Positions 43,947 through 64,000 of a DNA stretch of 64,000 nt are shown here, piece by piece. The notes beneath the pieces are model-generated. The model was not told the origin of the DNA, searched no databases, and saw only the letters and a program-made list of their open reading frames with translations. The translations under genes were made by a program, and so were the position numbers. Each line of letters starts with the position of its first letter. The stretch's first letter is position 1. Source of the stretch: Bradyrhizobium sp. 186 (GTDB lineage: Bacteria > Pseudomonadota > Alphaproteobacteria > Rhizobiales > Xanthobacteraceae). The stretch covers positions 9,052,001 to 9,116,000 of the forward strand of contig NZ_CP082164.1 of NCBI RefSeq assembly GCF_023101685.1. Reading direction: 5' to 3'.

Positions 43947-44867
43947 GTGGCGTTTCAGCGTCAAAAACCGGCGGCCCTTGGCGTTAAGGCGCCCTTCCCC
44001 GGCTTCATCGAACCGGCCTTGGCCACCTCGATCGAGAAGGTGCCGTCCGGAGAGCGCTGGATTCATGAGATCAAGTTCGACGGCTACCGTGTTCAGGTCC
44101 ATCTGGCTAACGAGGCGGCGAAGATTTTCACCCGGCGCGGCCATGATTGGACGCATCGCTTCAAGAAGGTCGCCCATGACGCCTGGCGGATCAAGGCGAA
44201 CTCGGCCGTTGTGGACGGCGAGATCGTGGTACCGGCCGCCGACGGCACTACCGACTTCTCGGTCCTGCAGAACGAGCTCAAGGGCAAGTCGACGAGCATC
44301 ATGCTTGTGGCGTTCGATTTGCTCTACCTGAATGGCCGCGATCTTCGGAAGCTGCCGCTGATCCAGAGGAAAGCCGAACTGAGGAAGATCGTCGATGGCA
44401 CCGACGTCCAGTTCAGCGAAAGCTTCGAGATCGAGGGACGCGAGATGTTCGCACACGCCTGCAAGCTCGGCCTGGAAGGTGTCGTCTCGAAGGTACGAGA
44501 CGGTCCCTATCCCAAAGGCCGTACAAGCGATTGGGTGAAGAAAACCTGCGCCCAGCGGGAGACGCTGACCATTGCCGGTTTCGCACTCGATGGAACGAAG
44601 TGGGACGGCATTTATGTCGGCAGGCGCAAGGGCGACGATCTGATCTATGCGGGCAAGGTCGACCACGGCTTTGACAAGACTTCCGCCGCTGACCTCCAGA
44701 AGAGACTGAAGCCGCTGATCCGGAAGACGCAGCCGTACACCAAGCGGATCGCACATAAGGGCATCTGGGTCGAACCAAAGCTGCTCGCCGAAATCGAGTA
44801 TCGCGCGAAGTCGGCCGAGGGAAAGGTTCGGCACCCGTTCTTCCGGGGCCTGCGGGAGGACCTGTGA
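43947..44867 (+). CDS. ATP-dependent DNA ligase (LigD ligase-domain type), first copy
   Basis: 306 residues from a GTG at 43947 with GGAG 11 bases upstream. Nucleotidyltransferase motif I is EIKFDGYRVQ (active-site Lys), motif III is VAFDLLYLNGRDL, motif IV is LEGVVSKV and motif V is DWVKKTC. The C-terminal half is an OB fold. Only the ligase domain is present; the polymerase and nuclease domains of full LigD are absent. It should seal nicks or ends in Ku-dependent repair. A 55-residue gene overlaps its stop. Confidence 0.9.
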   Translation: MAFQRQKPAALGVKAPFPGFIEPALATSIEKVPSGERWIHEIKFDGYRVQVHLANEAAKIFTRRGHDWTHRFKKVAHDAWRIKANSAVVDGEIVVPAADGTTDFSVLQNELKGKSTSIMLVAFDLLYLNGRDLRKLPLIQRKAELRKIVDGTDVQFSESFEIEGREMFAHACKLGLEGVVSKVRDGPYPKGRTSDWVKKTCAQRETLTIAGFALDGTKWDGIYVGRRKGDDLIYAGKVDHGFDKTSAADLQKRLKPLIRKTQPYTKRIAHKGIWVEPKLLAEIEYRAKSAEGKVRHPFFRGLREDL

Positions 44868-45034
44868 TGGATGCATTCGACCGCTTCTGGCAGTGGGCCA
44901 ACAAGCCCCTGGAAAGCCAACTGACGATTCCAGCCGAACTACACCAAGCCGTCATAGAGCTCGCTCCTGAGGACCAGCGGGACCGCGCCGCCGTGAACCA
45001 GGCCGCAGCACGCGTACCAGAGCCCGAACGATGA
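44867..45034 (+). CDS. Tiny protein translationally coupled to the ligase
   Basis: 55 residues, MDAFDRFWQWANKPLESQLT, then AVIELAPEDQRDRAAVNQAA. Its ATG overlaps the ligase stop (GTGATGG), so translation is coupled. The N-terminus is aromatic and amphipathic. No family is known to me by name. Confidence 0.6.
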   Translation: MDAFDRFWQWANKPLESQLTIPAELHQAVIELAPEDQRDRAAVNQAAARVPEPER

Positions 45035-45081
45035 GCGCTCGAAGGGTCGCTGGCCTTCACGCTTGGGTGCGGCCACAGAAA

Positions 45082-45696
45082 CTAACCCCGCGCGCGCCGC
45101 AGCGCGGCTTCCAATCGCGCCTTCTCCTTGTCCCAGCGGGCTTGCTCGGTTTGCGATTTCTTCTCAAGAGTCTCGATATCGGCTTGGATGGCGGCGGCCT
45201 GCTTCGCGTGCTCCTGCTCGGCCTTGTCCAGCGCAGCCTGCGCCTTGTCGACCGCCTGCTGACGGCGTTCATGCTCCTTCCGCCTGGCGGCCTCTTCCTT
45301 CGCCCGTTCAAGCTCGCGGCGCGATTGCTCCTTTTCGAAGGCGAGAGCGGCCTTTTGCTCCGCCGCCTTGTCGACGGGGCGAGAGGAAGGCCTTTTCGCC
45401 CCAGGACCTTTCGACTTGCGGGCGGCTTTCGTTGGCCTGGTACCGCCAAGATCGGTAGGCAGCTTGGCATGTTCGCCGAAGGGTCCGTCGGATCCGACGG
45501 CGCGCCTGAGAACAACGCCCGGTTTCTCCATGGCCGCGGCAATGACGTCCGGATCGTCACTTTCCTTCGCCGCGCCCTGGTGGAAGAGATTACTGTCTGC
45601 GCCCCACGCTTCCAGAGCCGCCTTCATCGACGGAGCGGCGATCGCCAGATCGAAGAAGCCCAGCGAAGTTTGGTAGGTCTTCAGTTTTCTGGCCAT
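45082..45696 (-). CDS. TolA-like coiled-coil protein of the repair cluster
   Basis: 204 residues from MARKLKTYQTSLGFFDLAIA. A short conserved N-terminal part (SMKAALEAWGADSNLFHQGA) is followed by a Lys/Arg-rich linker and a long charged coiled coil of Glu, Lys, Arg and Ala (RRELERAKEEAARRKEHERR onwards). Proteins of this form lie between ligase genes in rhizobial NHEJ clusters and are often named TolA by similarity of composition only. The function is unknown. No signal peptide is visible. Confidence 0.65.
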   Translation of the reverse strand: MARKLKTYQTSLGFFDLAIAAPSMKAALEAWGADSNLFHQGAAKESDDPDVIAAAMEKPGVVLRRAVGSDGPFGEHAKLPTDLGGTRPTKAARKSKGPGAKRPSSRPVDKAAEQKAALAFEKEQSRRELERAKEEAARRKEHERRQQAVDKAQAALDKAEQEHAKQAAAIQADIETLEKKSQTEQARWDKEKARLEAALRRARG

Positions 45697-45838
45697 CGGC
45701 CTGATCCGCCCTCCCCGATCAATCGTCAATGTCGCGCACGCCACGACGCCTGCGGAACACGACGCGGCCTCGAAGCGTTCCCCAATCCTTGGAGGACGTC
45801 CATGCATTTCGCAACCTGCTCTTAAGGATTGGCCCCGA

Positions 45839-46786
45839 ATGAGCCGGACGTCGACCCTGCCCAAGCGCCTGCAGCCGATGCTCGCCACACTTACCGACGC
45901 GCCGTTCGATGATCCCGGCTGGGTTTTCGAGGACAAGTACGACGGCTTCCGGATGATCGCAGAAATCCGGCGGGGCAAGGTTGCGCTCTACAGCCGCAAT
46001 GGCAAGATCATCAGCCGCAGCTATATGGAAGTAGCCAAAGCGCTGGAGGGCGTGAAGGGCGACGCCGTGATCGATGGCGAACTCGTCGCGATCGGAAAGG
46101 ACGGTTTCTCGCATTTCCAGCTGCTTCAAAACGCGCTGCGCCATGAAGCGAAGCTCCTGTATTGCGCCTTCGATCTTATGTTTGAGAACGCAGTGGACTT
46201 GCGCAAGCAGCCTCTCCTCGAGCGCAAGAAGCGGCTGAAGGCGATTCTGCCGCGCGACAAGCTGATCGCCTTCAGCGCTCACCGCAAAGGGGACGGTACG
46301 AAATTCTTCGCCGAGGCAGAGCGGAAGGGTTTGGAAGGCGTCATGGCGAAGCGCGCCGACAGCGCGTATTCGTCCGGAAGCCGGACCCCGGATTGGTTGA
46401 AGATCAAGACGGCAAACCGGCAGGAAGTGGTGATCGCCGGCTTCACGGCGCCCAGGCGCACCAGGCCGTTCTTCGGCGCCCTCGTCCTCGCCGTGCGGGA
46501 AGGCCGCGCATGGCGCTACATCGGACATGTCGGCACTGGCTTCAGCCACAAGGTCCTGGAAGACCTCCATGCCAAGCTCGTGAAGCTGACGGCTCCTCAA
46601 TCACCATTTCCTGCCAAAGTGAAGGACGAGGCCACCACGACCTGGGTCAAGCCCTCGCTGGTTGCCGAGGTCAAGTTCGCGGAGTGGACGGGCAAGGGCG
46701 AACTGCGCCAGCCCATCTACCTCGGACTCAGGTCCGACAAGCGGGCGAAGGATGTCGTGCGCGAACGAGAACGTTCGCGTAAATAG
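45839..46786 (+). CDS. ATP-dependent DNA ligase (LigD ligase-domain type), second copy
   Basis: 315 residues. Motif I is EDKYDGFRMI, motif III YCAFDLMFENAVDL, motif IV LEGVMAKRADSAY and motif V DWLKIKTANR; an OB-fold domain follows with VTTTWVKPSLVAEVKFAEWT-like text. Only distantly like the first copy (KFDGYR versus KYDGFR), so it is not a recent duplication. Some Rhizobiales carry several LigD-type ligases with separate Ku proteins. The gene is intact and faces the phosphoesterase convergently. Confidence 0.9.
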   Translation: MSRTSTLPKRLQPMLATLTDAPFDDPGWVFEDKYDGFRMIAEIRRGKVALYSRNGKIISRSYMEVAKALEGVKGDAVIDGELVAIGKDGFSHFQLLQNALRHEAKLLYCAFDLMFENAVDLRKQPLLERKKRLKAILPRDKLIAFSAHRKGDGTKFFAEAERKGLEGVMAKRADSAYSSGSRTPDWLKIKTANRQEVVIAGFTAPRRTRPFFGALVLAVREGRAWRYIGHVGTGFSHKVLEDLHAKLVKLTAPQSPFPAKVKDEATTTWVKPSLVAEVKFAEWTGKGELRQPIYLGLRSDKRAKDVVRERERSRK

Positions 46787-46808
46787 CGATCCCTTCGCGG
46801 CGGTGCGT

Positions 46809-47273
46809 TCAGTCGCCTCCAAGGTCGTGAATTTCCGGCTGTATGCCCTCAGGCGTGACTTCAAGCGTCGCAAGCGTGATCGGCAGCTTGAAGCGCCGCC
46901 GTCCCGCGCTGCCGGGATTCAGGTAGAGAACGCCGCCGACCGTGTCGATCTTCGGTACGTGGGAATGCCCTGAGACGATCACGTCGATGCCGGCGCCGGG
47001 ATCGACCTGCAGCGTCTTCAGGTCGTGCAGAACGTAGATCGACTTTCCCGCCAGGCGCACGAGTTTCGTGTCGGGGTATTCGCGGGCCCACTCGCCGCTG
47101 TCCACGTTTCCACGGATGGCCGTGACGGGCGCGATCCGGCGAAGCGCGTCGACGATCTCGGGGCGCCCGATGTCGCCGGCATGGATGATATGATTGACAC
47201 CCGTCAAGCCTCGTTCCGCCTCGGGCCTCAACAGGCCGTGCGTGTCCGAAATGATTCCAATCCTAAACGTCAT
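46809..47273 (-). CDS. YfcE/MJ0936-type metallophosphoesterase
   Basis: 154 residues. Metal-binding motifs are IISDTHGLL near the start, HAGDIG, AIRGNVDSGE and SGHSHVPKID, the calcineurin-like pattern of the small YfcE family. These hydrolyse phosphodiesters with Mn or similar ions. Its start overlaps the stop of the Nudix gene by four bases, so the two form an operon in the repair block. The gene is complete. Confidence 0.88.
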   Translation of the reverse strand: MTFRIGIISDTHGLLRPEAERGLTGVNHIIHAGDIGRPEIVDALRRIAPVTAIRGNVDSGEWAREYPDTKLVRLAGKSIYVLHDLKTLQVDPGAGIDVIVSGHSHVPKIDTVGGVLYLNPGSAGRRRFKLPITLATLEVTPEGIQPEIHDLGGD

Positions 47274-47773
47274 TTCCCGGCGGTCTCAACCGCGATCGCC
47301 AAAAGACGATCGAGAAGCTCTACCTGCCCGGACAGCAACTTCGTCCGCGCAAACTCGATATCGAACCATTCCGCGCGGTCGACTTCGGGAAAGCTCTGCC
47401 GTCGACCGCTTCGTGGCGGCCATTCGATATCGAAGGTATTGCTGATCAGCGCAGCCGGGTCAAAATGGCCTTCTCCGGCGAATGCGATGACGCGCTTTCC
47501 TCCTCGCTGTCGGATCTCCCCCAGCGGCTGGAGTGGATCAATCGAAGCATTCGGGCCGAGTTCTTCGGCAAACTCGCGCCGCGCGACCTGCTCCGGACCA
47601 TCAGCGGCATCGATTTCGCCCTTGGGAATGGACCAGGCGCCATTATCCTTCTTGCGCCAGAACGGACCGCCGGGATGAACGAGCAGAACCTCGAGCCCGC
47701 GAGCGCCCTCGCGGTATGCGAGAATGCCCGCGCTCAACGTCGATCTCCTGGAAATCGTTTTCAGCGCAGCCAT
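47270..47773 (-). CDS. Nudix hydrolase
   Basis: 167 residues from an ATG at 47773 preceded by GGGAG. The Nudix box GEIDAADGPEQVARREFAEEL fits GX5EX7REUXEEXGU (shown here to 20 residues plus GP). The preceding WRKKDNGAWSIPKG strand and LLVHPGGPFW are typical of an Ap4A/MutT-like group. It probably clears damaged or signalling nucleotides. It is four bases into the phosphoesterase gene and divergent-neighbour to Ku. Confidence 0.88.
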   Translation of the reverse strand: MAALKTISRRSTLSAGILAYREGARGLEVLLVHPGGPFWRKKDNGAWSIPKGEIDAADGPEQVARREFAEELGPNASIDPLQPLGEIRQRGGKRVIAFAGEGHFDPAALISNTFDIEWPPRSGRRQSFPEVDRAEWFDIEFARTKLLSGQVELLDRLLAIAVETAGK

Positions 47774-47836
47774 ATCGCTCCCTGCCGCGGACACGAAGTA
47801 ACGGCCGTCTGGCGTCAGTGGATGCCGAACGACACG

Positions 47837-48766
47837 CTAGGCTGACTTCCGCTGCGGTCTGGCCGCTGGCTTCTTCGCGGCTTCCTTGGCCGGTTTCTTG
47901 CCGGCAATCGGCATCAGCATTTCCTTCTGCCCGGCCGCCGCCTTGCGCGCCTTCTTGGCTGACTTCTTCGGCGCCTCTGTCGTTGCCGCCGTGCCTCCCC
48001 CGATGCTCTTCCGCAGCGCGTCCATCAGGTCGACCACGTTCTCGCCGCGGGGACGCGCTTTCGCGGTGATGGGTTTACCGGCGCGCTTCTGGTTGATGAG
48101 ATCGATGAGGGCGGTTTCGTACTGGTCTTCGAACTTGTCCGGCTCGAAATGGCCCGCCTTTTGATTGACGATGTGCTTGGCGAGATCGAGCATATCCTTG
48201 GTGACTTTGACGTCCTGGATATCGTCGAAATATTCCTCCGCAGAACGCACCTCGTAAGGATAGCGCAGCAGCGTCCCCATCAGCCCCTTGTCCAGCGGCT
48301 CGAGGGCGATGATGTGCTCACGGTTGGTCAGCACCACCCGTCCGATCGCGACCTTGTTCATCTCACGGATCGTTTCGCGGACGACGGCGAAGGCGTCGTG
48401 GCCGACCTTTCCGTCCGGCACCAGGTAATAAGGACGGATCAGGTACCTCGGGTCGATCTCGCTGCGGTTGACGAACTCGTCGATCTCGATGGTTCGTGTC
48501 GATTCCAGCGCGACGTTCTCGAGTTCCTTCTTCGTCACCTCGATGAAGGTGTCGGTGTCGACCTTGTAGCCCTTGACGATGTCCTCGTTGGCGACCTCCT
48601 CGCCGGTGTCAGCATCCACCTTGGCATATTTGATGCGGTGGCCGGTCTTCCGGTTGAGCTGGTTGAACGAGACCTTTTCGGATTCCGATGTGGCCGGATA
48701 GAGCGCTACCGGACAGGTGACGAGGGAAAGGCGCAGAAAACCTTTCCAGTTCGCGCGGGGGGCCAT
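47837..48766 (-). CDS. ku: Ku protein, non-homologous end joining
   Basis: 309 residues from MAPRANWKGFLRLSLVTCPV, the canonical Ku start. Core motifs include NQLNRKTGHRIKYAKVDADT, VTKKELENVALESTRTIEID and KAGHFEPDKFEDQYETAL. The homodimer rings around DNA ends and recruits LigD. The last 60 residues are Lys/Ala-rich, as in many rhizobial Ku proteins, and may bind extra DNA. The gene is intact and faces the repair genes at 48911 divergently. Confidence 0.95.
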   Translation of the reverse strand: MAPRANWKGFLRLSLVTCPVALYPATSESEKVSFNQLNRKTGHRIKYAKVDADTGEEVANEDIVKGYKVDTDTFIEVTKKELENVALESTRTIEIDEFVNRSEIDPRYLIRPYYLVPDGKVGHDAFAVVRETIREMNKVAIGRVVLTNREHIIALEPLDKGLMGTLLRYPYEVRSAEEYFDDIQDVKVTKDMLDLAKHIVNQKAGHFEPDKFEDQYETALIDLINQKRAGKPITAKARPRGENVVDLMDALRKSIGGGTAATTEAPKKSAKKARKAAAGQKEMLMPIAGKKPAKEAAKKPAARPQRKSA

Positions 48767-48910
48767 GGCGGGGAACTCCATACTGATGCCGGATTCAAGA
48801 CGAATGGCCCGGCTTGGTTCCGACATTGCAGCCTTCTGAACAGGACGATTTTTTCTCCGCGACCACTTGGACGGACTCGACTTTTGTTCTCTTTATGTTC
48901 TAATTCGGAA

Positions 48911-49306
48911 ATGACCGACCGACCCGCGAGCTGGCGCATGCCGACCCCAAAGCAGATGGAAAAGCTGACCGCTGAAGCCGCCCGTAGGCCAAGCCCCTCC
49001 GCTGCTGCTCCAGATGCGCCCCTCCCGGCGGAATACTGGGAATCGGTCCTCAAAGACCCTCGCGCCGGCGCGACCCCGGCCCAGATTCGGCAGCGACGTC
49101 TTTCGGAAATTCAGCGTCACGTATTGCGCGTCTCCTGCCGCCGCTGCGAGCGGACCGTCGAAATCCAGACTGCCGATGCAGTCCGATTGTATGGCGGCAA
49201 CGCGGTCTGGAAGGACGTCGCGCAGCGGCTGCTCGACAACACCTGCCAGCAGCGCACCGGCAGGCATGAAGAAGACGGGTGCTGGCCGGCGTTCGAGACG
49301 CCGTAA
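48911..49306 (+). CDS. Hypothetical protein divergent from ku
   Basis: 131 residues starting MTDRPASWRMPTPKQMEKLT. The middle has ADRYWESVLKDPRAGATPAQ-type text (AEYWESVLKDP) and a CRRCERTVEIQTADAVRLYG segment. Cysteines (CRRC and C at 112 and 124) suggest a zinc ribbon. It has no catalytic motif. It is the first gene of a rightward unit with the 49354 and SRAP genes. Confidence 0.6.
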   Translation: MTDRPASWRMPTPKQMEKLTAEAARRPSPSAAAPDAPLPAEYWESVLKDPRAGATPAQIRQRRLSEIQRHVLRVSCRRCERTVEIQTADAVRLYGGNAVWKDVAQRLLDNTCQQRTGRHEEDGCWPAFETP

Positions 49307-49353
49307 CCCGCTTCCATATCGCCGATCCGATCTCTTTGCGCCTGGATGTCCGG

Positions 49354-49803
49354 ATGGCCCCGAAGTATCACCCTACGCTCCTGTCGGGCGGCGACCGAAA
49401 GGCTCTGGCGAAAGAGCTCGGCAAGGCACGCGCGATGGCCAACATCCTGGCGGCTCAATCGGCGGAGACGCGGGGCAAGGGCGAGGCAATGATCCAGCAG
49501 GCCGACAGGCTGCTCTGTGAAAGCTGGAACGAGCGGATGTGGAGCGACGGCGAGCCGATCGATCCATCGCCCACCATCGACCAGGCCGTGAATGGAGGCT
49601 TTCCCTGGCTGGAGATCCGCTGCGCGCGGTGCAAGACGCCGAGCGACGTCGACCTCGCGGCGATGAAGCATCCGCCGACCACCTTTGTGCATGATCTCGC
49701 CAGCCGGCTGCGCTGCCGTAAATGCGCCAAGGCGGGGCGGCGTCCGCCGGCGACCCTGCTACAATTGGCCTGGCAACCGCGCCATCCTCGGACCGAAGCT
49801 TGA
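49354..49803 (+). CDS. Hypothetical zinc-ribbon-like protein
   Basis: 149 residues starting MAPKYHPTLLSGGDRKALAK. An N-terminal helical part is followed by WLEIRCARCKTPSDVDLAAM and CRKCAKAGRR, two CxxC pairs about 35 residues apart, consistent with a zinc ribbon. Its stop at 49801-49803 is three bases before the ATG of the split SRAP gene. The function is unknown. Confidence 0.6.
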   Translation: MAPKYHPTLLSGGDRKALAKELGKARAMANILAAQSAETRGKGEAMIQQADRLLCESWNERMWSDGEPIDPSPTIDQAVNGGFPWLEIRCARCKTPSDVDLAAMKHPPTTFVHDLASRLRCRKCAKAGRRPPATLLQLAWQPRHPRTEA

Positions 49804-49806
49804 ACG

Positions 49807-49819
49807 ATGTGCAATCTTT
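49807..49819 (+). pseudogene. SRAP gene, 5' fragment (Met-Cys end)
   Basis: The bases ATGTGCAATCTTTA read Met-Cys-Asn-Leu-Tyr, the invariant SRAP start, and stop at the left inverted repeat of the RIT element. The rest of the gene lies 6 kb to the right at 55832-56551. Confidence 0.7.
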
Positions 49820-49904
49820 ACTATGCCGACCTCTGGATTATGCCGACCATTGGCCCAGAACTGTCTCTGGCTGCGGTGATCGCTGCGTCGGAGTCGGCAT
49901 AATC
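49820..49904 (+). repeat. Left inverted repeat of the RIT element
   Basis: Begins ACTATGCCGACCTCTGG and ends GAGTCGGCATAATC. It matches the complement of 53087-53171 at most positions. Confidence 0.85.
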
Positions 49905-49958
49905 CGATTGATCCCACAGGTGTGTAGTCTCCCTCTTGCCAATTGAAGGGAGGCTTTC

Positions 49959-51182
49959 ATGTTGATTGATCTGTCACGAGTTAGGGTTTCGGGTCCGCTT
50001 TCGGCATTCGCGACCGGGTTTGCCGACCACATGACAAGACAAGGCTATAGCCAACAGCAGGCCCGCATTCAGTTATTGCTGCTAAACCGCCTGAGCAATT
50101 GGCTTGTGAGCAAGGGGCTCGATGTAGGGGAACTACGAGCAAAGGAAGTAGGGCAGTTTCAGCTCAGCCGTCATGAAGCGGGTGACAAAATTCTTCGCTC
50201 TATCAGAGCGATGCAGCCGATCCTCGGTTACCTGCGCGGTCTTGGGATCGCACCGGCGGCTTCGTCGCTCCCGGTCAGCGGAGTGCTTGAAGCGGCCCTG
50301 GCGCGATACCGAGGTTACTTGATACTTGAGCGTGGCATCAGGAATGCGTCAGCGTCCCGGTATATTGAACTGATGCGCCCCTTCCTTCAAACCAAGGTCT
50401 TGCCGGACGGCCTTACTCTAGACCTTCGAAGCCTGACGGCGGCTGACGTCATTTCTTTTGTGGTGACAAACTGCCCTCGCCTGAGCCCTGGGACGGCCGG
50501 GCTGACGGTGTCGGCCCTTCGATCACTACTCGGTTTTCTTTACGTCGACGGCGCTATCGATCGGTCACTGGTGTCTGCGGTACCGACCGTTCCCGGTCGG
50601 CGATTAACCGGATTGCCGAAGGGATTGGCCGCTGACCAAGTGCAGCGCCTTCTGGCGTCCTGCGACACCAGCACCCGAAGTGGCTGTCGTGACTTCGCGG
50701 TCCTGACCATGCTTGTTCGCCTGGGCTTGCGGGCAGGCGAAGTCGCCAAACTGCAACTTGAGCATATCGATTGGCGAGGCGGCGAGATCGTGATTGCCCA
50801 CAGCAAAGGCAATCGCTCCGAACGACTGCCATTACCTGCAGATGTCGGCGAAGCAATCGCGGCTTACTTGCATCACGGCCGTCCCGCAAGCGCGCAAGGC
50901 CGAATGGTGTTTGCACGGATCACAGCTCCGCATCACGCTCTCACCACTGGCGCGGTAACGCAGATTGTTCGCCACGCTGGCGAACGGTGCGGCTTTGAAC
51001 GGATCCATGCTCACCGGCTGCGTCACACCGCAGCGACTCTGATGCTACGCGGCGGTGCATCGCTGCCCGAGATCGGACAACTCCTGCGCCACCGCAACGC
51101 CATTACGACATCGATCTATGCCAAGGTCGATCGCGATGCTCTGCGGTCGATCGCTCGCCCCTGGCCGGGTGTCGTCGCATGA
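49959..51182 (+). CDS. RIT tyrosine recombinase A
   Basis: 407 residues. The N-terminal core-binding domain is followed by RLGLRAGEVAKLQLEHIDW (first Arg), HRLRHTAATLMLRGG (HxxR), LLRHRNAITTS and catalytic tyrosine in SIYAKV. As the first recombinase of a RIT trio it is the longest. It ends with ATGA, overlapping the next gene by four bases. Confidence 0.9.
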   Translation: MLIDLSRVRVSGPLSAFATGFADHMTRQGYSQQQARIQLLLLNRLSNWLVSKGLDVGELRAKEVGQFQLSRHEAGDKILRSIRAMQPILGYLRGLGIAPAASSLPVSGVLEAALARYRGYLILERGIRNASASRYIELMRPFLQTKVLPDGLTLDLRSLTAADVISFVVTNCPRLSPGTAGLTVSALRSLLGFLYVDGAIDRSLVSAVPTVPGRRLTGLPKGLAADQVQRLLASCDTSTRSGCRDFAVLTMLVRLGLRAGEVAKLQLEHIDWRGGEIVIAHSKGNRSERLPLPADVGEAIAAYLHHGRPASAQGRMVFARITAPHHALTTGAVTQIVRHAGERCGFERIHAHRLRHTAATLMLRGGASLPEIGQLLRHRNAITTSIYAKVDRDALRSIARPWPGVVA

Positions 51183-52102
51183 ACGCTCTCCGCAAGGCTC
51201 TCGCAGACTACTTTGTGGTTCGCCGCGCCCTCGGCTTTAAGCTCTATCGAGCCGAGAAGCTCCTCGGTCAGTTTCTCACCTTCGTCGAGGATCGCGGCGA
51301 AGATCATCTGACAACCGAGGCGGCGCTCGCTTGGGCGACACTCCCTAAGCGCGGTCGAACCTGGGCGTTTGCCCGGCTTTCCGTTGTTCGCCGCTTCGCT
51401 AAACACCTGCGCGGGATCGACCCCGCGACCGAGGTGCCCCCGACACACTTGCTGGTGCAGCAAAAAGGCCGAGCCACCCCCTACCTATATTCGGAGTCGG
51501 ATATCGCGGCCCTCATCGCCGCAGCCGGGACGCTGCGGACACCGCACCGAGTGGCGACATTTCGGACATTGATCGCTTTGCTTGCAGTGACCGGAATGCG
51601 GGTTGGGGAAGCGATCGGCCTCGACCGCGACGATTTTGACTCCGTCATTGGACTACTCACCATTCGGAACGCAAAGTTCGGCAAGTCTCGCCAATTGCCG
51701 CTGCATCCGAGCACCGTGGCTGCACTGGTTGATTATCTGCGTCGAGACGACCGTCCGGCAAACTCGTCGAATACGCCGGCACTGCTGGTCACTACGGTTG
51801 GCACCAGGTTCCGCTACATGGGCGTCCAGCCCGTCTTTCGTCAAATTGTGGATGTCGCCGGCCTCAAGCCGCGCTCTGCCTCATGCCGTCCGAGGCTGCA
51901 TGACCTGCGGCATGGATTTGCCGTCAATACCATCCTTGACGGATATCGAGATGGCCGGGAGCCGGGGAACCGGATCGCGTTGTTGTCGACCTACCTCGGC
52001 CACGTCGATCCTGTCAGCACATACTGGTATCTCTCAGCTGCGCCGGAGTTGCTGACGCTGGTTGGTGATCGTTTGGAGCGGCACCTCGGAGGTGCCGCAT
52101 GA
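51179..52102 (+). CDS. RIT tyrosine recombinase B
   Basis: 307 residues. Motifs: TGMRVGEAIGLDRDDF, HDLRHGFAVNTILDG, YLGHVDPVSTYWYLS. It overlaps recombinase A and C by four bases (ATGA) on each side, a typical tight coupling. The RIT family's tri-protein complex is thought to act as a unit, though the mechanism is not known in detail. Confidence 0.9.
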   Translation: MNALRKALADYFVVRRALGFKLYRAEKLLGQFLTFVEDRGEDHLTTEAALAWATLPKRGRTWAFARLSVVRRFAKHLRGIDPATEVPPTHLLVQQKGRATPYLYSESDIAALIAAAGTLRTPHRVATFRTLIALLAVTGMRVGEAIGLDRDDFDSVIGLLTIRNAKFGKSRQLPLHPSTVAALVDYLRRDDRPANSSNTPALLVTTVGTRFRYMGVQPVFRQIVDVAGLKPRSASCRPRLHDLRHGFAVNTILDGYRDGREPGNRIALLSTYLGHVDPVSTYWYLSAAPELLTLVGDRLERHLGGAA

Positions 52103-53088
52103 CCGCACTTGCCCCAACCCTGCAAGCGTTCTTCACGGAACGCCTCATCCGCCAGCGCCAAGCTAGTCCCCATACACTTGCGGCCTACCGGGACACGCTG
52201 CGGCTGCTGCTGGTCTTCGCGTCCGCGAGGAAAGACGTCGAACCATCGAAGCTAGACATCGACGATCTTGATGCGCCGCTCATCGGCGCCTTCCTCGACC
52301 ATCTTGAGAAGCAGCGGGAGAATAGTGCGCGCACTCGCAACGCTCGACTTGCCGCCGTCCGTTCGCTGTTCCGGTACGCAGCGCTTCGACATCCCGAGCA
52401 TGCCGCCATAATCGAACGCGTGCTTGCCATTCCACGCAAGCGTTTCGACCGGAGGATCGTCACTTTCCTGATCGAACCGGAACTCGATGCGCTGTTCCGC
52501 GCACCCGACCGCTCGACCTGGACCGGGCGGCGCGACCATACCTTGCTTACGCTCGCGGCCCAAACGGGCCTGCGTGCGTCAGAATTGATCGGCCTTCGCA
52601 TCAGCGATGTTCATCTCGGCACTGGCGCCCATGTCAGTTGCATGGGGAAAGGACGGAAGTTGCGGATCACACCGATTACCTCGGGTATGGTCGCCCTCCT
52701 GCGTGTTTGGCTCGCCGAGCGCGCTGGTCAGCCGACGGAGCCACTTTTCGTCACCCAGTCGGGGACGTCACTCAGCCGTGACGCCGTCGAACATCGGCTC
52801 GCCAAATACGTTCAGATCGCCACCCGCGCCTGTCCGTCGTTGGGACTGAAAACCATCAGCATGCATGTGTTGCGTCATAGCGCCGCGATGCGACTGCTGC
52901 GGGCAGGAATTGAAACCTCGGTGATAGCACTTTGGCTCGGCCATGAGCAGGTCGAAACCACCCACATCTACCTACACGCGGATATGGGAATCAAGGAACG
53001 CGCACTGGCCGCGACAGCTCCAACGGTCGCCACTCCCGGTCGTTTTCGACCGAACGACAAGCTTCTCGCATTTTTGGAGGCACTGTGA
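52099..53088 (+). CDS. RIT tyrosine recombinase C
   Basis: 329 residues. Motifs: TGLRASELIGLRISDVHLGT, HVLRHSAAMRLLRAG, WLGHEQVETTHIYLHA. The stop codon lies two bases inside the right inverted repeat. No lesion is seen in any of the three RIT genes, so the element may still be able to move. Confidence 0.9.
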   Translation: MTALAPTLQAFFTERLIRQRQASPHTLAAYRDTLRLLLVFASARKDVEPSKLDIDDLDAPLIGAFLDHLEKQRENSARTRNARLAAVRSLFRYAALRHPEHAAIIERVLAIPRKRFDRRIVTFLIEPELDALFRAPDRSTWTGRRDHTLLTLAAQTGLRASELIGLRISDVHLGTGAHVSCMGKGRKLRITPITSGMVALLRVWLAERAGQPTEPLFVTQSGTSLSRDAVEHRLAKYVQIATRACPSLGLKTISMHVLRHSAAMRLLRAGIETSVIALWLGHEQVETTHIYLHADMGIKERALAATAPTVATPGRFRPNDKLLAFLEAL

Positions 53089-57659: not shown

Positions 57660-57681
57660 TTGAGCCTATGTGAGACCCGCG

Positions 57682-58449
57682 ATGACGCAACTGGATCAGT
57701 TTACACTGACGACCGTCCCGATCGAGCAGTACTTCGACCATATGCCACTCGGTCAGGGCACTGGATTCACGTGGAAGATTGGAGATCAACACTACCTCGT
57801 GACCAATTGGCACGTGCTGACGATGTGCGATTTTTTCACTCGGGCGAATTTGAGAAAAGATGCGGGCCGGCCAAACATCCTGCGCACGCTGTTCAACATC
57901 CGCACTGGATCGTTTGAAAAGCAGAGGTTGGACATCAAAATCAGAGACGAAAATGATAGGCCGCTTTGGCTGGTACATCCCAGCAGGCGGGTGGACATCG
58001 CGGTTTTGCCGATTCCATTCAAGCAAGAAGGGCTGACCATCGCCCTGTATCCGCTCAACATCCTGGCCAACGCCGCGCTTCGCATCGAGGTCGGGATGGA
58101 GGTATTTATCCTCGGTTACCCTTTTAAAATCTCACCGCCTGCCTATCCCGTCTGGAAGAGGGGAAGCATCGCGTCGGAGCCCGCACTCGCCCGGCTTACG
58201 ACCGACTACATGCTGGTCGATACTGCCTCGCGTCCCGGCATGTCCGGAGCGCCTGTGATTCGGCGAAGCTGGACAAACCATATGGTCGATCCGGGCGTTG
58301 TTGCACTCGTCGATACGCCGCTGAACAAATTCATTGGCGTGTACTCGGGTCGCATGCCGACAGATCATCCGCATCAAGCCCAGATCGGGCTGGTATGGGA
58401 CGGCTCGTTGATCGACGAAATCATCGCGGGCAACGTCAAGGACGAATAA
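57682..58449 (+). CDS. Trypsin-like serine protease (putative defence-associated)
   Basis: 255 residues from the ATG at 57682; a GTG at 57670 is an alternative. The catalytic triad is His44 in LVTNWHV, Asp105 in RVDIAVLP and Ser188 in SRPGMSGAPV, the chymotrypsin-fold pattern. No signal peptide is visible, so it should act in the cytoplasm, unlike Deg proteases, and there is no PDZ domain. It is 54 bases from the next gene on the same strand. In bacterial defence systems such proteases often act as effectors on a partner protein. The substrate here is unknown. Confidence 0.8.
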   Translation: MTQLDQFTLTTVPIEQYFDHMPLGQGTGFTWKIGDQHYLVTNWHVLTMCDFFTRANLRKDAGRPNILRTLFNIRTGSFEKQRLDIKIRDENDRPLWLVHPSRRVDIAVLPIPFKQEGLTIALYPLNILANAALRIEVGMEVFILGYPFKISPPAYPVWKRGSIASEPALARLTTDYMLVDTASRPGMSGAPVIRRSWTNHMVDPGVVALVDTPLNKFIGVYSGRMPTDHPHQAQIGLVWDGSLIDEIIAGNVKDE

Positions 58450-58503
58450 GCTGTTTCCCATATCTGTCGCGCTGACAACTGCAGCAATGGATCGAGACTT
58501 TCA

Positions 58504-59769
58504 ATGGCGGATATTCAGAAGATAGTTGACGATCTCTCGACACTCACGATCAGCGAAGCCGCCGAACTGGCAAAAATGCTGAAAGCGAAGTGGAGCACCG
58601 CCGAGCGTGAAGAGCAATTGGTCCTGTTCGAAGATCGCGAGAGAACACGGACAGACCCGTTGCGTCGTGGTGAGCAGCTTTTTGATTTTTACGATAGCAG
58701 TGCAAGCCCTGGCTACAGCGAACTGAGATCGGTCGTGAACGGCTGGTTGGCGCGGATGTCCGCGAGTGATCGCGCCGAGCTGATTACCCGCATCTGTTAC
58801 GGAGGAGATCGCGAGTTCGGGGCGGCGCTATCCGAGCTGTCGACCAATGCCTTCATCGTTGGCTCAGGTTACCGCGCCACACCGCATCCGCAGGTTTCCG
58901 GTTCAACGAAGCGACCCGACTTTGCTGCGATCGACCAGACAGACGGGACAGTTGCATACGTAGAGGTAACGACCGTCAATCCGCCGGCCACAGAAGCAGC
59001 TGAGAAGAACAGAGAAAACCCAATCTACAACGCAATAAACGGGGCCACAATTCCAGCCGGGTCGATCCTTGGATACAGATTAGCGCGCGCAGGCAAGAGT
59101 AGTCCGCCATTGCGGCCGCTCGTCGGTGACGTCGAACGCTGGGCGCGCGACAACGCCGAGGTAGCAAAGACCAAAGAGATCAGTAAGACATTCACCGCGG
59201 GAGACTGGATTATTGAGCTCGATCTCTACTCGGGCGGCAGCGACCCCAACCCGCCGACAGAGGCGATCGGAGTCGCTCAAATGCGAGGGGGTGTTATCGC
59301 CCCGCACAAGGATCTCCGCGATGCACTGCACGAAAAGTCTCGTAGGTACGGGGCGCTCGAAAAGCCGTATCTAATCGCTGTCGCGGACGGAAAGAACCAG
59401 CTGTTCAACAAGGACTCGATCCATTCAGCACTTACCGACGCTGTCTTTGGCGATGAAATCGTGCAGTTCGAAGACGGCACGGCTTATATCGTCCGCGGAA
59501 AGAATGGATTCTGGCATGGGCCGAACGGTCCGCGGAACAAGTATGTGAGCGGAATTCTATTATTGCCTGAAACAGGGTTGTGGAAACTGAGAGAGGAGAA
59601 ATGGCAGCCGGTGCTCGCGGTTAACCCTTGGGCGGTCAATCCTATTCCAGACGCGTTACGAGAGATGAACCGGTTTGAAGCGGACGGCGATAAGTGGGTG
59701 TTCCGTAAGGGAGAACGGTTCGCCGACATTATCGGCCTGCCCGAACCGTGGCCACGGATTGAAGAATGA
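58504..59769 (+). CDS. Fusion of L7/L12-like N-terminal domain with a PD-(D/E)xK-like domain
   Basis: 421 residues. Residues 1-30 (MADIQKIVDDLSTLTISEAA, then ELAKMLKAKW) closely match the N-terminal dimerisation and L10-binding helices of ribosomal protein L7/L12. A charged linker follows. Residues about 130-160 contain RPDFAAID and, 12 residues on, YVEVTTV, a PD-xE-x-T pattern near that of PD-(D/E)xK nucleases (Lys replaced by Thr). The rest is of no known fold to me and includes SILGYRLARAGKSSPPLRPL and FWHGPNGPRNKYVSGILLLP. It follows the protease gene as an apparent pair. This combination is new to me. Confidence 0.7.
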   Translation: MADIQKIVDDLSTLTISEAAELAKMLKAKWSTAEREEQLVLFEDRERTRTDPLRRGEQLFDFYDSSASPGYSELRSVVNGWLARMSASDRAELITRICYGGDREFGAALSELSTNAFIVGSGYRATPHPQVSGSTKRPDFAAIDQTDGTVAYVEVTTVNPPATEAAEKNRENPIYNAINGATIPAGSILGYRLARAGKSSPPLRPLVGDVERWARDNAEVAKTKEISKTFTAGDWIIELDLYSGGSDPNPPTEAIGVAQMRGGVIAPHKDLRDALHEKSRRYGALEKPYLIAVADGKNQLFNKDSIHSALTDAVFGDEIVQFEDGTAYIVRGKNGFWHGPNGPRNKYVSGILLLPETGLWKLREEKWQPVLAVNPWAVNPIPDALREMNRFEADGDKWVFRKGERFADIIGLPEPWPRIEE

Positions 59770-59899: not shown

Positions 59900-61366
59900 T
59901 CAGAACGGCGATCGATCATTCTTCTCCCAGCGGGAACGACGGACTCGATATTCATCAGTCTTAAAGACGACGCCCTCCACATGGTTCACGCAAACGCTAT
60001 CTGGCATCACACGAAGACTCGGCTTGCGCGGATCGGAATCAACCTCTGTCCCCGCTAATGCTGGCATGGCAGAATCCGGCCACGCCGGTGTCTTTTGCTG
60101 TTTTTCATCCGCCTTTAACGCCGGCGGCGTTTCCTCGATGACCGAGTAATCGTCTTCCCACCCCTCCGCGCTGCTGTGCCCCGTACTGGCCCTGATTTCA
60201 GTACCGTTTGGGATTTCCATCGCCTCGACCCGCGCAGCCTTGTGGAATAACACGACGTTGAGCACGTCTCCGGCGACTTGAACCGACGGAAAGATGATGC
60301 CGTCGATAGGTACCGAGGATTCAGTTGCTAGAAAATCGGCGACGGCCTGCGTTGCCAGATACTCAAAGGACTCGTCGTCGGGCATGACTGGTTGAGTGAT
60401 ACGGCTACTTAGAGATTTCAGGAATTGCGCTCGTTCCAAGCGGCGCTCAAATTCGAGATCGAAGATGCTTCCGCGCATCTGCACATTCTTGAGCGCCGTC
60501 AGATCAAGCAGCCGAAGATTTCGGATGATTTCGAATTGCGCGACGGCAACCTTACTTCCAACCGGAGGCCGCACCTCGGCGATGGCGGCCTTGGGATCAT
60601 TGGCACCGTAGAATACGGAAATGCCGCTCGCGTTCATGCGACCTGCGGCGGCCAACAGCGCAGGCGGCGACCCGAGCTGCTGATCGGGCCGACACATCGC
60701 CACCTCTAGTCTGTTCTCGGACTGAAAGACCCGGGCGCGAAAAAGTGTATGGAAACCCGTTCCGGGCCCTGCATCAACGACAAGAGGCTCCCCCTGCCGC
60801 GTCTGCAAATCGTCGACCCCGTCGAAGATTGCGGCTAGATGGGCAGCTGCAGTGCGGCTAAAAAAACGTGCCTCTGTCTTGAGAGAATTCTCGAACCGAC
60901 GCCATTCCTCGCGCCAGGCGGCATCGCTAACCTTTCTCTCCTGATAGTAGCTATCGCTTGCGAACTCAGTCTCCTCGCCCATAGCCGCGCTGTCGAAATC
61001 GCCATGTTCGTCCTCCAGGATTGACTGGACGTCCTGAGCAGCGTCATCAGAAATTTCTGCGGCGTTTTGAATCGCGTACACGACATCTTCGCCATGTCGG
61101 TTCCATTCGTAACTCAGCTCCTTATCGCGCTGGAGCATATGTTCGTAGTCGTTCGGCTGATCGGAAGTTCGATAGTAGTGTTGCTCGAACGCAGTCGCCA
61201 CACGCTCGGCGACCTTGCCAAGGCTGAAGGCGCGACGCGCCTTTTTGCAATAGCTGCACTTGGCCCGTTTCCCTTTTGCTCGAACTTCGTCACTTAGATA
61301 CTGCTCTCCAATGCAAGAGTAGCAAATGTGCTTAGCTTTGAGTTCATCAATATTTTCGGAATGCAC
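59900..61366 (-). CDS. RES-domain NAD+ phosphorylase-like protein with N-terminal zinc ribbon (HEPN/RES type)
   Basis: 488 residues. The N-terminus has CYSCIGEQYLS and, 20 residues on, KCSYCKKARRAF, a CxxC-CxxC zinc ribbon, then a helical region (DYEHMLQRDKELSYEWNRHG). The RES domain follows: FRARVFQSE (Arg), SVFYGANDPKAAIAEVRPPV (Tyr and Glu) and FEIIRNLRLLDLTAL. RES proteins degrade NAD+ and act as toxins; this long form with an N-terminal domain is seen in defence loci. No antitoxin of the Xre/MbcA type is next to it. The C-terminal 100 residues are disordered-looking. Confidence 0.8.
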   Translation of the reverse strand: MHSENIDELKAKHICYSCIGEQYLSDEVRAKGKRAKCSYCKKARRAFSLGKVAERVATAFEQHYYRTSDQPNDYEHMLQRDKELSYEWNRHGEDVVYAIQNAAEISDDAAQDVQSILEDEHGDFDSAAMGEETEFASDSYYQERKVSDAAWREEWRRFENSLKTEARFFSRTAAAHLAAIFDGVDDLQTRQGEPLVVDAGPGTGFHTLFRARVFQSENRLEVAMCRPDQQLGSPPALLAAAGRMNASGISVFYGANDPKAAIAEVRPPVGSKVAVAQFEIIRNLRLLDLTALKNVQMRGSIFDLEFERRLERAQFLKSLSSRITQPVMPDDESFEYLATQAVADFLATESSVPIDGIIFPSVQVAGDVLNVVLFHKAARVEAMEIPNGTEIRASTGHSSAEGWEDDYSVIEETPPALKADEKQQKTPAWPDSAMPALAGTEVDSDPRKPSLRVMPDSVCVNHVEGVVFKTDEYRVRRSRWEKNDRSPF

Positions 61367-61464: not shown

Positions 61465-62395
61465 AGTCTGTCCGGGATCATGCTGTTTTTTGGCAGAGCT
61501 TTCGCAGCATGAGGCGGATTGAGGCGAGGCGCAAGAACGCCAATGCCTTTCGGTTGAGGCACTCCCAATCCTTGGCCAAACGGCGGCAGCGGTTGAGCCA
61601 GGCGATGGTGCGTTCGACGATCCATCGCTTGGGCAAGATCGCAAAACTCTTTGCTGTATCGGAGCGCTTGACGATCTCGACGTCGATTTGCCGGAGGATT
61701 TTGCGAACGGCGGACTGAAAGATCGGCCCCTGATAGCCGCCGTCAGCATAGAGCTTCAGCAGGAATGGATGCAGGCCAAACAGCGTGGCCATCACCAGCA
61801 CCCCACCGTCACGATCCTGGATGTCCGCCGAATGCACGAGGGCGTGGAGCAGCAAGCCTTGAGTATCGACTAGGATGTGGCGCTTCTTGCCCTTGATCTT
61901 CTTGCCCGCATCGTAGCCATGCGGGTCGATCCACGCCCCCCTTTTTCCGCGCTCTTGACGCTTTGACTGTCGATGATGGCGGCGCTCGGGCTGGGTTCTC
62001 GGTTAGCCAATTCTCGACATTGTACATAGAGCGCGTGATGGATGCGATCGAGCGTGCCGTTCCAAGCCCACAAGTCAAAATAGTCGTGCACCGTGCTGCG
62101 TGGCGGCAGGTCCTTCGGGATCGCTCGCCATTGGCAACCGGTGCTCAGCACATACATCAGGCCATTGATCACCTCGCGCACATCGACCGTGCGCTTGTTG
62201 CCGCCTCGCTTGGCTGGCGCAATCAGCGGCCCCACCAACGCCCATTCCTCATCAGTCAAATCGCTTGGATAGCGTAGCCGGCTTCGGTCGTAACGACCGC
62301 GGTTCTCCTTCGTCCACATGGGCGCCCCTTCGAATCGGACTGCCACCCTTGAATCACAAATGATTCCGATGATTCAAGATGTTCCCGGACAGACA
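61465..62395 (-). mobile_element. IS5-family (IS427-like) insertion sequence
   Basis: 931 bases with terminal inverted repeats (GTCTGTCCGGGA at each end) and a direct repeat of the target CTGAG at 61460-61464 and 62396-62400. The transposase is coded on the minus strand in two frames. The element inserted into the end of a DUF6035 gene. Confidence 0.9.
61478..62319 (-). CDS. IS5-family transposase, two frames joined by a -1 shift
   Basis: The first frame (MWTKENRGRYDRSRLRYPSD onwards, from 62319) carries IIDSQSVKSAEKGG with the first catalytic Asp. The second frame ends at 61478 and carries YADGGYQGP (second Asp) and RWIVERTIAWLNRCRRL (Glu). They meet at the run AAAAAGGGGGG (61936-61946), where a -1 slip would join them, as in related IS427 elements. 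Both halves otherwise look intact, so this is likely programmed frameshifting, not decay. Confidence 0.8.
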
Positions 62396-63345
62396 CTGAG
62401 GGAACAGGGCAAGCGCAATCTTACCTGAAACGCTTTCGCGATCATCTTGTGCCACTGCGCGTGCTTTGACGATCTTGTTGCGAATACTCTGGACCTCAAA
62501 GACAGCCTCCTTGTTGGTCAGTCGAGCGAAAGTACGGATAAGACGCACATAACGTTGTCGTCGCTCGACATTAAGGAAGGAGTTTAGCACTTCGACAAGA
62601 TTCTGCTGTCGTGACCCGACCGGCCGGCCGTCGACCAACGAGAGCATGCAGTTGATCAATGCATCCACGTCGAGCGCGTGCAGCTCATCGACGTCACCGG
62701 GAAGCTTCAATTTGGCGACAAGTTCGCTAAAGAGGGCCTCGCGCTCTTTCCATTTCGTGCCTTTTTCGCCGAGCGCACCGCGCCAGCGCGAGAGAAAGTC
62801 GTGATGCCAAGGCGGCCTCGACGGCACCAAGTTTGCGCGCCCCCCGTCGTTCCAGTTTAAGTCCGAAAGGGTGGCTAGTTTCGAGAGCCATGCGTCTCCA
62901 TTCATCCAGAACGCGCGCAAAATTACGTCCTGCTTCTCTTTCGAGAGGGCAATCGTTTCGTCGTCCATTGAGAACAGATTTTTATCGTGAGAGTAGAAAA
63001 TGTCCTCAAATGAACTAAGTAGCCGGCCGTTCGTGGGCGGCTCGAAATTCCAGGTGAGCCACATTAGGCGAATGGATGCGTTCTCATAGAAGTCTTCCCG
63101 TTGCACTATGATGGGGATCTGCGTGGTGGAAAGTTGGACCTCCACGACGAGTGGCAAGCCGTCATAGATCGCGCGTACGTCCGGGCGCCGTCGCCCATTT
63201 CCTTGGATAAGATACTCGTCAACAACGACACTTCCTGCCGTCGTGCGATGGTCGTCTGCTAACAACTCACCGACGATATGCTTGATTTTTGCATGGAGCG
63301 GGCTTTCCTGCGCGCCATCAAATTGCTGCGCGCTAATTATATCGA

Positions 63346-64000
63346 CACTAGTACTCGGAATCAGAGCTGAGTGATACGGCGGCCTTTGAAACGGCGTTGA
63401 CGGACCTTTTTCTTGGTCCAGACGAAGGGCTCGGCTTTGTCGTTGTAGGCGTTGACGTAGGCATCGATGTGGTTCCTGAAGCTGGCTGAGGCTTGTGAAG
63501 GAGGTGCCGCTAAGTGACTGCCCCTGCAAGATCGAGAACCAGACCTCGACCTGATTGAGCCAGGACGCGCTTGTCGGCGTGAAGTGAAATTGCACGTTGG
63601 GGTGGGCCTTGAGCCAGGGCTCGTTCTTCTTGTGGGTGTTGAGGTTGTCGAGGATGACGTGAAGCTTTCGGCCCGGAAAGGCCGCGGCGACACTGTTCAT
63701 GAAGTCGAGAAACTCGACGCGGCGACGGCGTTTTGAATGCGTCGCGATGATCTTTCCGGTGGCGACTTCAAGCGCCGCAAACAGCGTTGTCGTGCCATGC
63801 CGCTTGTAACTGGCTCTGGCCGGTCAAGGCGCGGCCATTGGGCAACTTCAGGTAACCCTGCGCTCGCTCCAAGGCCTGGATCGAGGGCTTCTCGTCCACG
63901 CATAGCACAATGGCCTTCGCGGGCGGGGCGACGTAGAGGCCGACAACATCGGCGGCTTTGGCCGTAAAGTTCGGGTCGTTGCTCTCGCACCAAGACTTGC
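63346..64000 (-). pseudogene. IS630-family transposase, frameshifted, cut by window edge
   Basis: Reading leftward from the edge: SWCESNDPNFTAKAADVVGL, VLCVDEKPSIQALERAQGYL, then after a one-base shift near 63815 SYKRHGTTTLFAALEVATGK and LDFMNSVAAAFPGRKLHVIL, then after another near 63490 HIDAYVNAYNDKAEPFVWTK and a stop at 63361. Catalytic Asp and Glu segments are recognisable but two frameshifts make it dead unless sequencing errors are involved. The 5' end lies outside the window. Confidence 0.75.

Follow-up and report, generated by a model that had tools for sequence, protein, structure and literature searches.

A Bradyrhizobium gene that joins the bL12 N-terminal hairpin to a putative PD-(D/E)XK nuclease core, a candidate stalk-docked defence effector

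Why should a gene for what appears to be a nuclease begin with the part of ribosomal protein bL12 (L7/L12) that dimerises and docks on L10? We asked this of a locus in the 10.8 Mb genome of Bradyrhizobium sp. 186 (assembly GCF_023101685.1), using a window of 64,000 nucleotides from contig NZ_CP082164.1 (positions 9,052,001-9,116,000) in whose own coordinates all features are given. Two adjoining genes on the + strand, separated by 54 base pairs, encode a trypsin-like protease and then a 421-residue fusion protein, and both open reading frames (ORFs) lie where an earlier note, made from the DNA letters alone, had placed them. That note had proposed a defence system that sits on the ribosomal stalk and releases or activates a nuclease when cleaved. 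The explanation that we consider best, with belief and doubt evenly balanced, is that the fusion protein is a stalk-docked defence nuclease of the PD-(D/E)XK kind carrying a borrowed ribosome-docking tag. Its parts differ in strength: the product is probably a defence effector, docking of the hairpin on the ribosome is somewhat favoured, and a defence effector that both docks and cuts locally falls a little short of an even prospect. L10 binding, nuclease activity, target, trigger and the defence role are all things that we infer from sequence.

The L12 hairpin and the core behind it

The L12-like start recognised in the earlier note was borne out. Residues 4-30 match the Pfam family Ribosomal_L12_N (PF16320) with an E-value of 5.9e-6 and 26.3 bits against a curated cut-off of 25, and a search of the protein's own genome (E ≤ 10) returned, besides itself, rplL alone, with 70% identity over residues 1-33 (E 1.3e-6). 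The start is common among homologues, the precomputed Pfam L12_N domain being present in 58 of 116 and the motif being found by pattern in 67 of 116. Chance likeness to L12 is ruled out by the Pfam match, the identity to rplL and the conservation among homologues; a paralogue of L12 is ruled out by the absence of the C-terminal domain PF00542, for which a Pfam scan of the whole protein to E 1 gave no match. When the host L12 was searched against 121 genomes of the order (E ≤ 1e-5), one match each was obtained in 112 and none in 9, and the sole second L12 match among those genomes was the fusion gene of the window.

The borrowed piece has a sharp boundary. Across the 52 tagged (hairpin-bearing) rows of an 81-row alignment, mean pairwise identity was 69.0% for residues 1-30, 69.6% for the core and 24.6% for the linker between them. 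Eight hairpin positions (L11, S12, L14, E18, A19, L22, L26 and W30) show 97-100% conservation across 67 fusions and do not vary among 29 true L12s, whereas the hinge residues Gly31 and Val32, invariant in the same 29 L12s, are mostly replaced in the fusions, with Gly31 kept in 15 of 67. Because L12 conservation stops at Trp30 and the hinge is replaced, the kept piece corresponds to the hairpin; it also matches, at the same length, the 30-residue L12 chains of PDB entries 1zav, 1zaw and 1zax, which we take to be L10-L12 complexes. On these comparisons we identify residues 1-30 as a true bL12 N-terminal hairpin.

The rest of the protein had been credited with an RPD...VEVT nuclease-like motif, and here the residues stood more firmly than the function. 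Over 81 aligned rows E111, D139, E154 and K278 are invariant and V155 and T156 at least 90% conserved. Set against an active-site pattern of a helix Glu, an Asp and Glu-x-Lys, the acidic residues E111, D139 and E154 are in place, T156 stands at the Lys position and the invariant K278 lies elsewhere. With PADLOC (E ≤ 0.01), six of 18 core rows matched PD-T7-5 (best 5.3e-6), four matched PD-T7-1 (best 7e-5) and one matched CARF_PDDEXK. Pfam placed the core members in no family, DUF5784 appearing weakly in 4 of 34 (best 0.0012), and no lactamase-type match of the metallo-beta-lactamase (MBL) fold was obtained for the fusion protein in Pfam to E 1. PD-T7-5 and PD-T7-1 are single-gene anti-phage proteins selected in PMC9519451; the portion of PMC10952713 available to us gives both as PD(D/E)XK nucleases, and that of PMC10270631 mentions a low-probability RmuC-like prediction for both. 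From the motif and the weak family matches of relatives, we offer the nuclease assignment as a weak one.

Distribution and reuse of the hairpin

The core is rare. Matches, some of them fragments, were found in 7 of 391 genomes sampled from the family, 6 of 397 from the order, 6 of 385 from the class and 12 of 265 from the genus (threshold for the genus, E ≤ 1e-5); the samples overlap, and each includes the window's own genome. Relatives of the core occur on Pseudomonas, Acinetobacter, Bradyrhizobium and Cellulosimicrobium plasmids and in a Sphingobacteriaceae protein. A first scan of genome contigs with the whole fusion protein returned no relative. A phage origin of the fusion is not supported, as the core had no match in 50,697 phage records; one viral contig (L028) carries an untagged relative.

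A tree of 96 cores, built from 87 of the 116 homologues (29 short or odd rows were left out) and nine loci and rooted at the midpoint only, placed the 60 tagged rows inside one 62-row clade (Shimodaira-Hasegawa-like approximate likelihood-ratio support, 94) with two apparent losses, and the tag label changed three times on it compared with a mean of 29 when shuffled. One of the rows counted as tagged, P0060, has a partial hairpin, inside which its annotated start lies, and the two untagged rows within the clade (P0029 and P0032) may be losses or wrong starts. Many untagged cores start with Met-Leu-Phe at the place where the linker of the tagged ones ends. The pattern fits one acquisition of the hairpin by an older core that had none. 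Homologues thus did not prove to lack the L12 start, an outcome that would have told against the earlier idea: 60 of the 96 rows keep it, conserved as well as the core.

The hairpin also recurs on other proteins. A search with the first 40 residues of a tagged protein against proteins of about 214-681 residues gave 102 matches, among them 22 of the window's family (class I), 19 class II clusters, two HNH proteins, one ParB-like protein and one of unknown kind. The other 57 were set aside as rplL/rplJ read-through, frameshift or chimera products, mostly since they keep the GVSAAA hinge, and some of these (for example P0240, P0285, P0302 and P0314) could be real singletons. Class II (within P0237-P0309) is a family of about 227 residues with the same hairpin and the motif FPDGFVE...LNIEVTEVD, and PD-T7-1 matches at E ≤ 0.1 were obtained for 15 of 16 members (best 4e-4). 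We did not unite the class I and class II cores in one family, since their profiles showed no relation in a comparison of weak power (effective number of sequences, Neff, about 3 on each side). For the HNH protein P0266, HNH_5 was matched at E 0.0063, below the Pfam cut-off, PADLOC PDC-M01B at 5.8e-7 and an HNH PHROG at 3.1e-5; P0309 was called HNH by its likeness to P0266, and the ParB-like singleton by a PHROG match at E 0.0066. Likeness to L12 stops at Trp30 in most members, with one or two hinge residues kept in P0309 and P0270.

Two residues bear on how the hairpin spread. Lys13 and Asp21 each occur in 3 of 29 sampled true L12s, in 46 and 27 of 67 class I fusions, respectively, and in 19 and 14 of 19 class II members. 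Being common to both tagged families, they hint that the tag passed from one effector to another instead of being acquired afresh on each occasion; an origin in a donor lineage whose L12 carried Lys13 and Asp21 is equally possible. Two proteins of a neighbouring clade (support 98), P0089 and P0101, carry GatB sequence in place of the hairpin before the same core, P0101 the last ~64 residues of GatB and P0089 more. Their contigs are short (1,891 and 2,638 bases) and an assembly error is possible, yet the proteins are divergent from each other.

Relatives of the class II core were found in 12 of 166 genus genomes, with the hairpin seen, by reading, in none of their frames. Neither the plasmid scans with P0266 (HNH) and P0299 nor the viral-contig scans with P0038 and P0242 returned a relative. 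Among 25 plasmid records and 20 of 40 listed, every hairpin match with an annotated feature was named rplL, the remaining matches in those records being without feature or annotation. In Clostridioides difficile, plasmids of about 97-150 kb have an annotated rplL (11 of 12 listed).

Found on several effectors, the hairpin has the look of a translation-apparatus tag available for reuse by defence effectors. More broadly, and with doubt somewhat outweighing belief, we suggest that it may be a shuffled docking module that alphaproteobacterial defence has grafted onto unrelated nuclease-type effectors, with the GatB tail as a second address tag and phage bL12 as a possible trigger. Such a module would span the window's family, the second PD/EVT family, the HNH proteins and perhaps the ParB-like one.

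Mechanism, protease and rival explanations

In the mechanism that we envisage, the L12 hairpin would dimerise and occupy the place of an L12 dimer on the L10 helix, and the flexible linker, of about 6-14 residues, would hold the nuclease at the GTPase-associated centre of the large subunit, where it would wait until infection. It might then cut RNA on the ribosome, or phage or host nucleic acid nearby, and so stop translation or phage growth; one option for the trigger is that phage bL12, in exchanging with stalk L12, would displace the tagged effector. The stalk-sitting part of the earlier proposal is strengthened, because the hairpin is kept by half or more of the homologues, is as conserved as the core and is reused on other effector-like domains. 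The part that made protease pairing and cleavage integral did not prove general, as described below.

Several observations weigh against a stalk-docked nuclease. Charged hairpin positions that never vary in true L12s are less strictly kept in the fusions (K6, 82%; K24, 70%; E27, 48%; K29, 82%), which could reflect lost contacts. The hairpin is absent from 34 of the 96 tree rows, and because so many relatives of the core lack it, docking would not be needed for the core's basic function. A tblastn search for the hairpin in 46 fetched, partly redundant core loci found one, the window's own, and the tagged members come from the protein database and the window's genome only. Most core loci were seen with no recognised defence system alongside, as judged without profiling the neighbours. 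As to the nuclease, the window's own core had no PADLOC match at E ≤ 0.01, in Pfam it matched DUF5784 only (E 0.082), a sequence search of the PDB gave nothing convincing (best E 0.066, an arginine kinase), and E-x-T is without the usual lysine of E-x-K.

The main rival, which we judge unlikely, takes the hairpin as a ready-made homodimerisation domain for a dimeric nuclease, the ribosome being uninvolved. Dimeric nucleases are common, PF16320 is named a dimerisation domain, L12 N-termini dimerise, and the hydrophobic hairpin positions are kept while the charged ones are relaxed; however, untagged cores in several lineages do without the hairpin, the recurrence of this one ribosomal piece across several effectors points to something more specific than general dimerisation, and an L12 hairpin in dimeric form would be expected to encounter L10 in any case. 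Improbable, in our view, is a hairpin that acts as bait or sensor by mimicking the stalk, so that the tagged nuclease would be unleashed when exchange with phage bL12, or a phage factor that binds L12, displaced or engaged it. Integrated decoys are well known, and L12 relatives (six nearly complete) are encoded on 19 viral contigs, the largest of 529 kb, while a 735-kb uncultured phage has an L12-like stretch at E 7e-3. Some of the 19 contigs may nevertheless be bacterial DNA, above all a 36-kb one with 70% identity, and no phage factor that acts on the hairpin came to light; the bait idea moreover does not conflict with docking and may supply its trigger instead of competing with it. That the L12 start is a leader captured for expression from a highly expressed gene, with a peptide that has no role, is very improbable. 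The join does lie at the start of the old core, as Met-Leu-Phe in many untagged cores indicates, but the amino acids are preserved with other codons (the fusion start and host rplL agree at 70 of 99 bases), the 100 bases upstream are, by eye, unlike those of rplL, and conservation stops at the domain boundary.

There remains the protease, which in one rival makes a two-gene system with the fusion protein by cutting and activating a pro-nuclease or freeing it from the ribosome. The protease itself is intact, as the earlier note had said, with its His44/Asp105/Ser188 numbering valid from the ATG at 57682 (255 residues) and not from the GTG at 57670. It matches Trypsin_2 (E 1.6e-12) and PADLOC PDC-S45 (E 7e-17), a defence-candidate type; among 1143 homologues, of which 120 are listed, the triad was followed in 121 aligned rows, where H is present in all 116 rows with a letter (five gaps), D in 120 and S in 119. 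A match to the LmuA profile (3.1e-5) spans positions 1-158 of 425, taken as LmuA's protease part, and with Trypsin_2 as its only Pfam domain in 255 residues the protein is not fused to HamA, Avs1b or LmuA.

The pairing fared less well. In 265 same-genus genomes the core is present in 12 (E ≤ 1e-5, fragments included) and the protease in 20 (E ≤ 1e-20), and the window's genome alone has both, with about 0.9 expected by chance; the protease is accordingly not supported as a fixed partner of the core. Three further contigs seem, from equal size alone, to hold both: the longest contigs agree in the two homologue tables at 13,597 (P0006/P0118), 7,493 (P0009/P0120) and 41,006 bases (P0002/P0213, the latter a partial protease), and the fusion member on each is a near relative of the window's gene. 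A fourth shared size, 1,914, was taken as coincidence because it is too short for both genes complete. Other fetched core loci gave weak protease-like matches, namely an ORF at E 0.0011 about 7 kb from the core (L015) and one that looks like a cytochrome (L062), and in P0113, from a short contig, a truncated core is joined to another kind of trypsin-like domain. Protease homologues elsewhere have other neighbours or none recognised, and a viral-contig scan with the protease returned no relative. In Sphingomonas paucimobilis (L101) a homologous protease gene overlaps a downstream gene annotated as a PD-(D/E)XK nuclease, and in Bradyrhizobium sp. 62B (L098) one lies near a multiubiquitin/ThiF operon and AbiE-type genes. 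Adjacency on one strand at 54 base pairs, the intact triad, the three contigs and a precedent for the mechanism in the available part of PMC12799240 speak for a two-gene system, which the genus counts, the weak matches at other core loci and the varied neighbours of the protease make still less probable than the bait. Since core and protease coincide, among the 265 genomes, only in the window's own and, apparently, on three further contigs, activation by cleavage is unsupported as a general mechanism and would be at most a local elaboration of a stalk-docked effector.

Neighbouring genes and comparison with known systems

The features of the locus are collected in Table 1. In another genome (G1259, locus L063), a RES gene 86% identical to that of the window is likewise convergent with a degraded core remnant, which has 76% identity over its last 110 residues. 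Farther along the window, on the - strand, an IS630-type transposase fragment lies in frame with a DUF6035/CoiA nuclease-like protein (62357-63700). Upstream of the pair, 43947-53088 holds two LigD-like ORFs, a Ku-like ORF and three tandem tyrosine recombinases, and 9177-32057 holds conjugation- or plasmid-type genes (TraG/VirD4-like, relaxase-like, TraF-like, RepA-like and a large helicase), both sets named by reading rather than by profile; the region 9177-32057 looks like an integrated mobile element.

Table 1. Features of the fusion gene and its neighbours, in window coordinates
Feature	Position	Strand	Basis or remark
Fusion protein, bL12 N-terminal hairpin + linker + PD-(D/E)XK-like core, 421 residues	58504..59769	+	
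L12 N-terminal dimerisation/L10-docking hairpin, residues 1-30, ends at Trp30	58504..58593	+	Pfam PF16320, own rplL, position table, solved L12 fragments
Linker, residues 31-40, unconserved, replaces L12 hinge	58594..58623	+	24.6% mean pairwise identity
Core, residues 41-421, PD-(D/E)XK nuclease-like, putative distant kin of PD-T7-5/PD-T7-1	58624..59766	+	PADLOC matches of relatives
Glu111, invariant	58834..58836	+	Core alignment
Asp139 within RPDF, invariant	58918..58920	+	Core alignment
Glu154-Val155-Thr156, E-x-T at E-x-K position	58963..58971	+	E154 invariant, V155/T156 at least 90%
Lys278, invariant; possible catalytic Lys	59335..59337	+	Core alignment
Trypsin-like serine protease, 255 residues, His44/Asp105/Ser188	57682..58449	+	PADLOC candidate PDC-S45; membership in system doubtful
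Convergent neighbour, HEPN/RES N-terminal (HEPN_RES_NTD1) + RES domains	59903..61366	-	Pfam; also listed from 59900

If the stalk-docked reading is true, the translation machinery would be a standing guard post for anti-phage nucleases, an L12 hairpin without an L12 C-terminus would become a search rule for ribosome-stationed effectors, large phages would have a reason to carry their own bL12, and a 30-residue natural tag would be at hand for bringing proteins to the stalk. The defence nucleases known to us are attached to sensors, membranes or DNA, and we know of none addressed to the ribosome by a ribosomal protein's docking part. In the literature on L12, the stalk and ribosome-linked effectors, as far as it could be consulted (mostly without subscription papers, and without bioRxiv preprints), none of the titles and abstract openings listed described an L12 hairpin on a nuclease, and PMC10914614, on phage proteins that target ribosomes, contained no L12 terms.

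Docking being a proposal, we file the protein provisionally under single-gene PD-(D/E)XK-type defence proteins; the broader reading of a shuffled docking module would be new in kind. The nearest of these are PD-T7-5 and PD-T7-1, to which relatives of the window's core and class II proteins show weak, repeated profile matches. The window's core differs in giving no such match at the threshold used and in having E-x-T, not E-x-K, and its protein in having an L12 hairpin, of which the parts of the PD-T7 papers available to us make no mention. The protease-activated nuclease pairs of Hachiman, AVAST, Lamassu, DRT and canu (PMC12799240) resemble the locus in that a trypsin-like protease gene stands beside a presumed nuclease gene. 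In the available part of that paper, however, the partner of an MBL-fold nuclease is a caspase or a protease that forms one protein with a defence protein, whereas the window's protease is free-standing and upstream, its presumed nuclease is of a non-MBL kind and the two genes are not conserved as a pair.

A likeness to accessory genes of the cyclic oligonucleotide-based anti-phage signalling system (CBASS) and of Gabija lies in two plasmid loci, one case each: on Acinetobacter plasmid pWM98-2 an untagged class I core that comes immediately after a complete CBASS operon (cyclase-HORMA-TRIP13-NucC), and an untagged class II relative directly behind GajA/GajB on pCW1_1. Beside the window's fusion gene, in contrast, neither a CBASS nor a Gabija gene was seen. 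With bL12 the fusion protein shares the dimerisation and L10-binding hairpin, from which it departs in the absent C-terminal factor-binding domain, the replaced hinge and an unrelated core of ~380 residues. Plant ribosome-inactivating proteins bind the stalk and RelE, a ribosome-bound toxin, binds the A site, each through its own surfaces. These too would be effectors brought to the ribosome, and in the case of the plant toxins to the stalk, but the protein of the window has the stalk protein's own docking part fused on.

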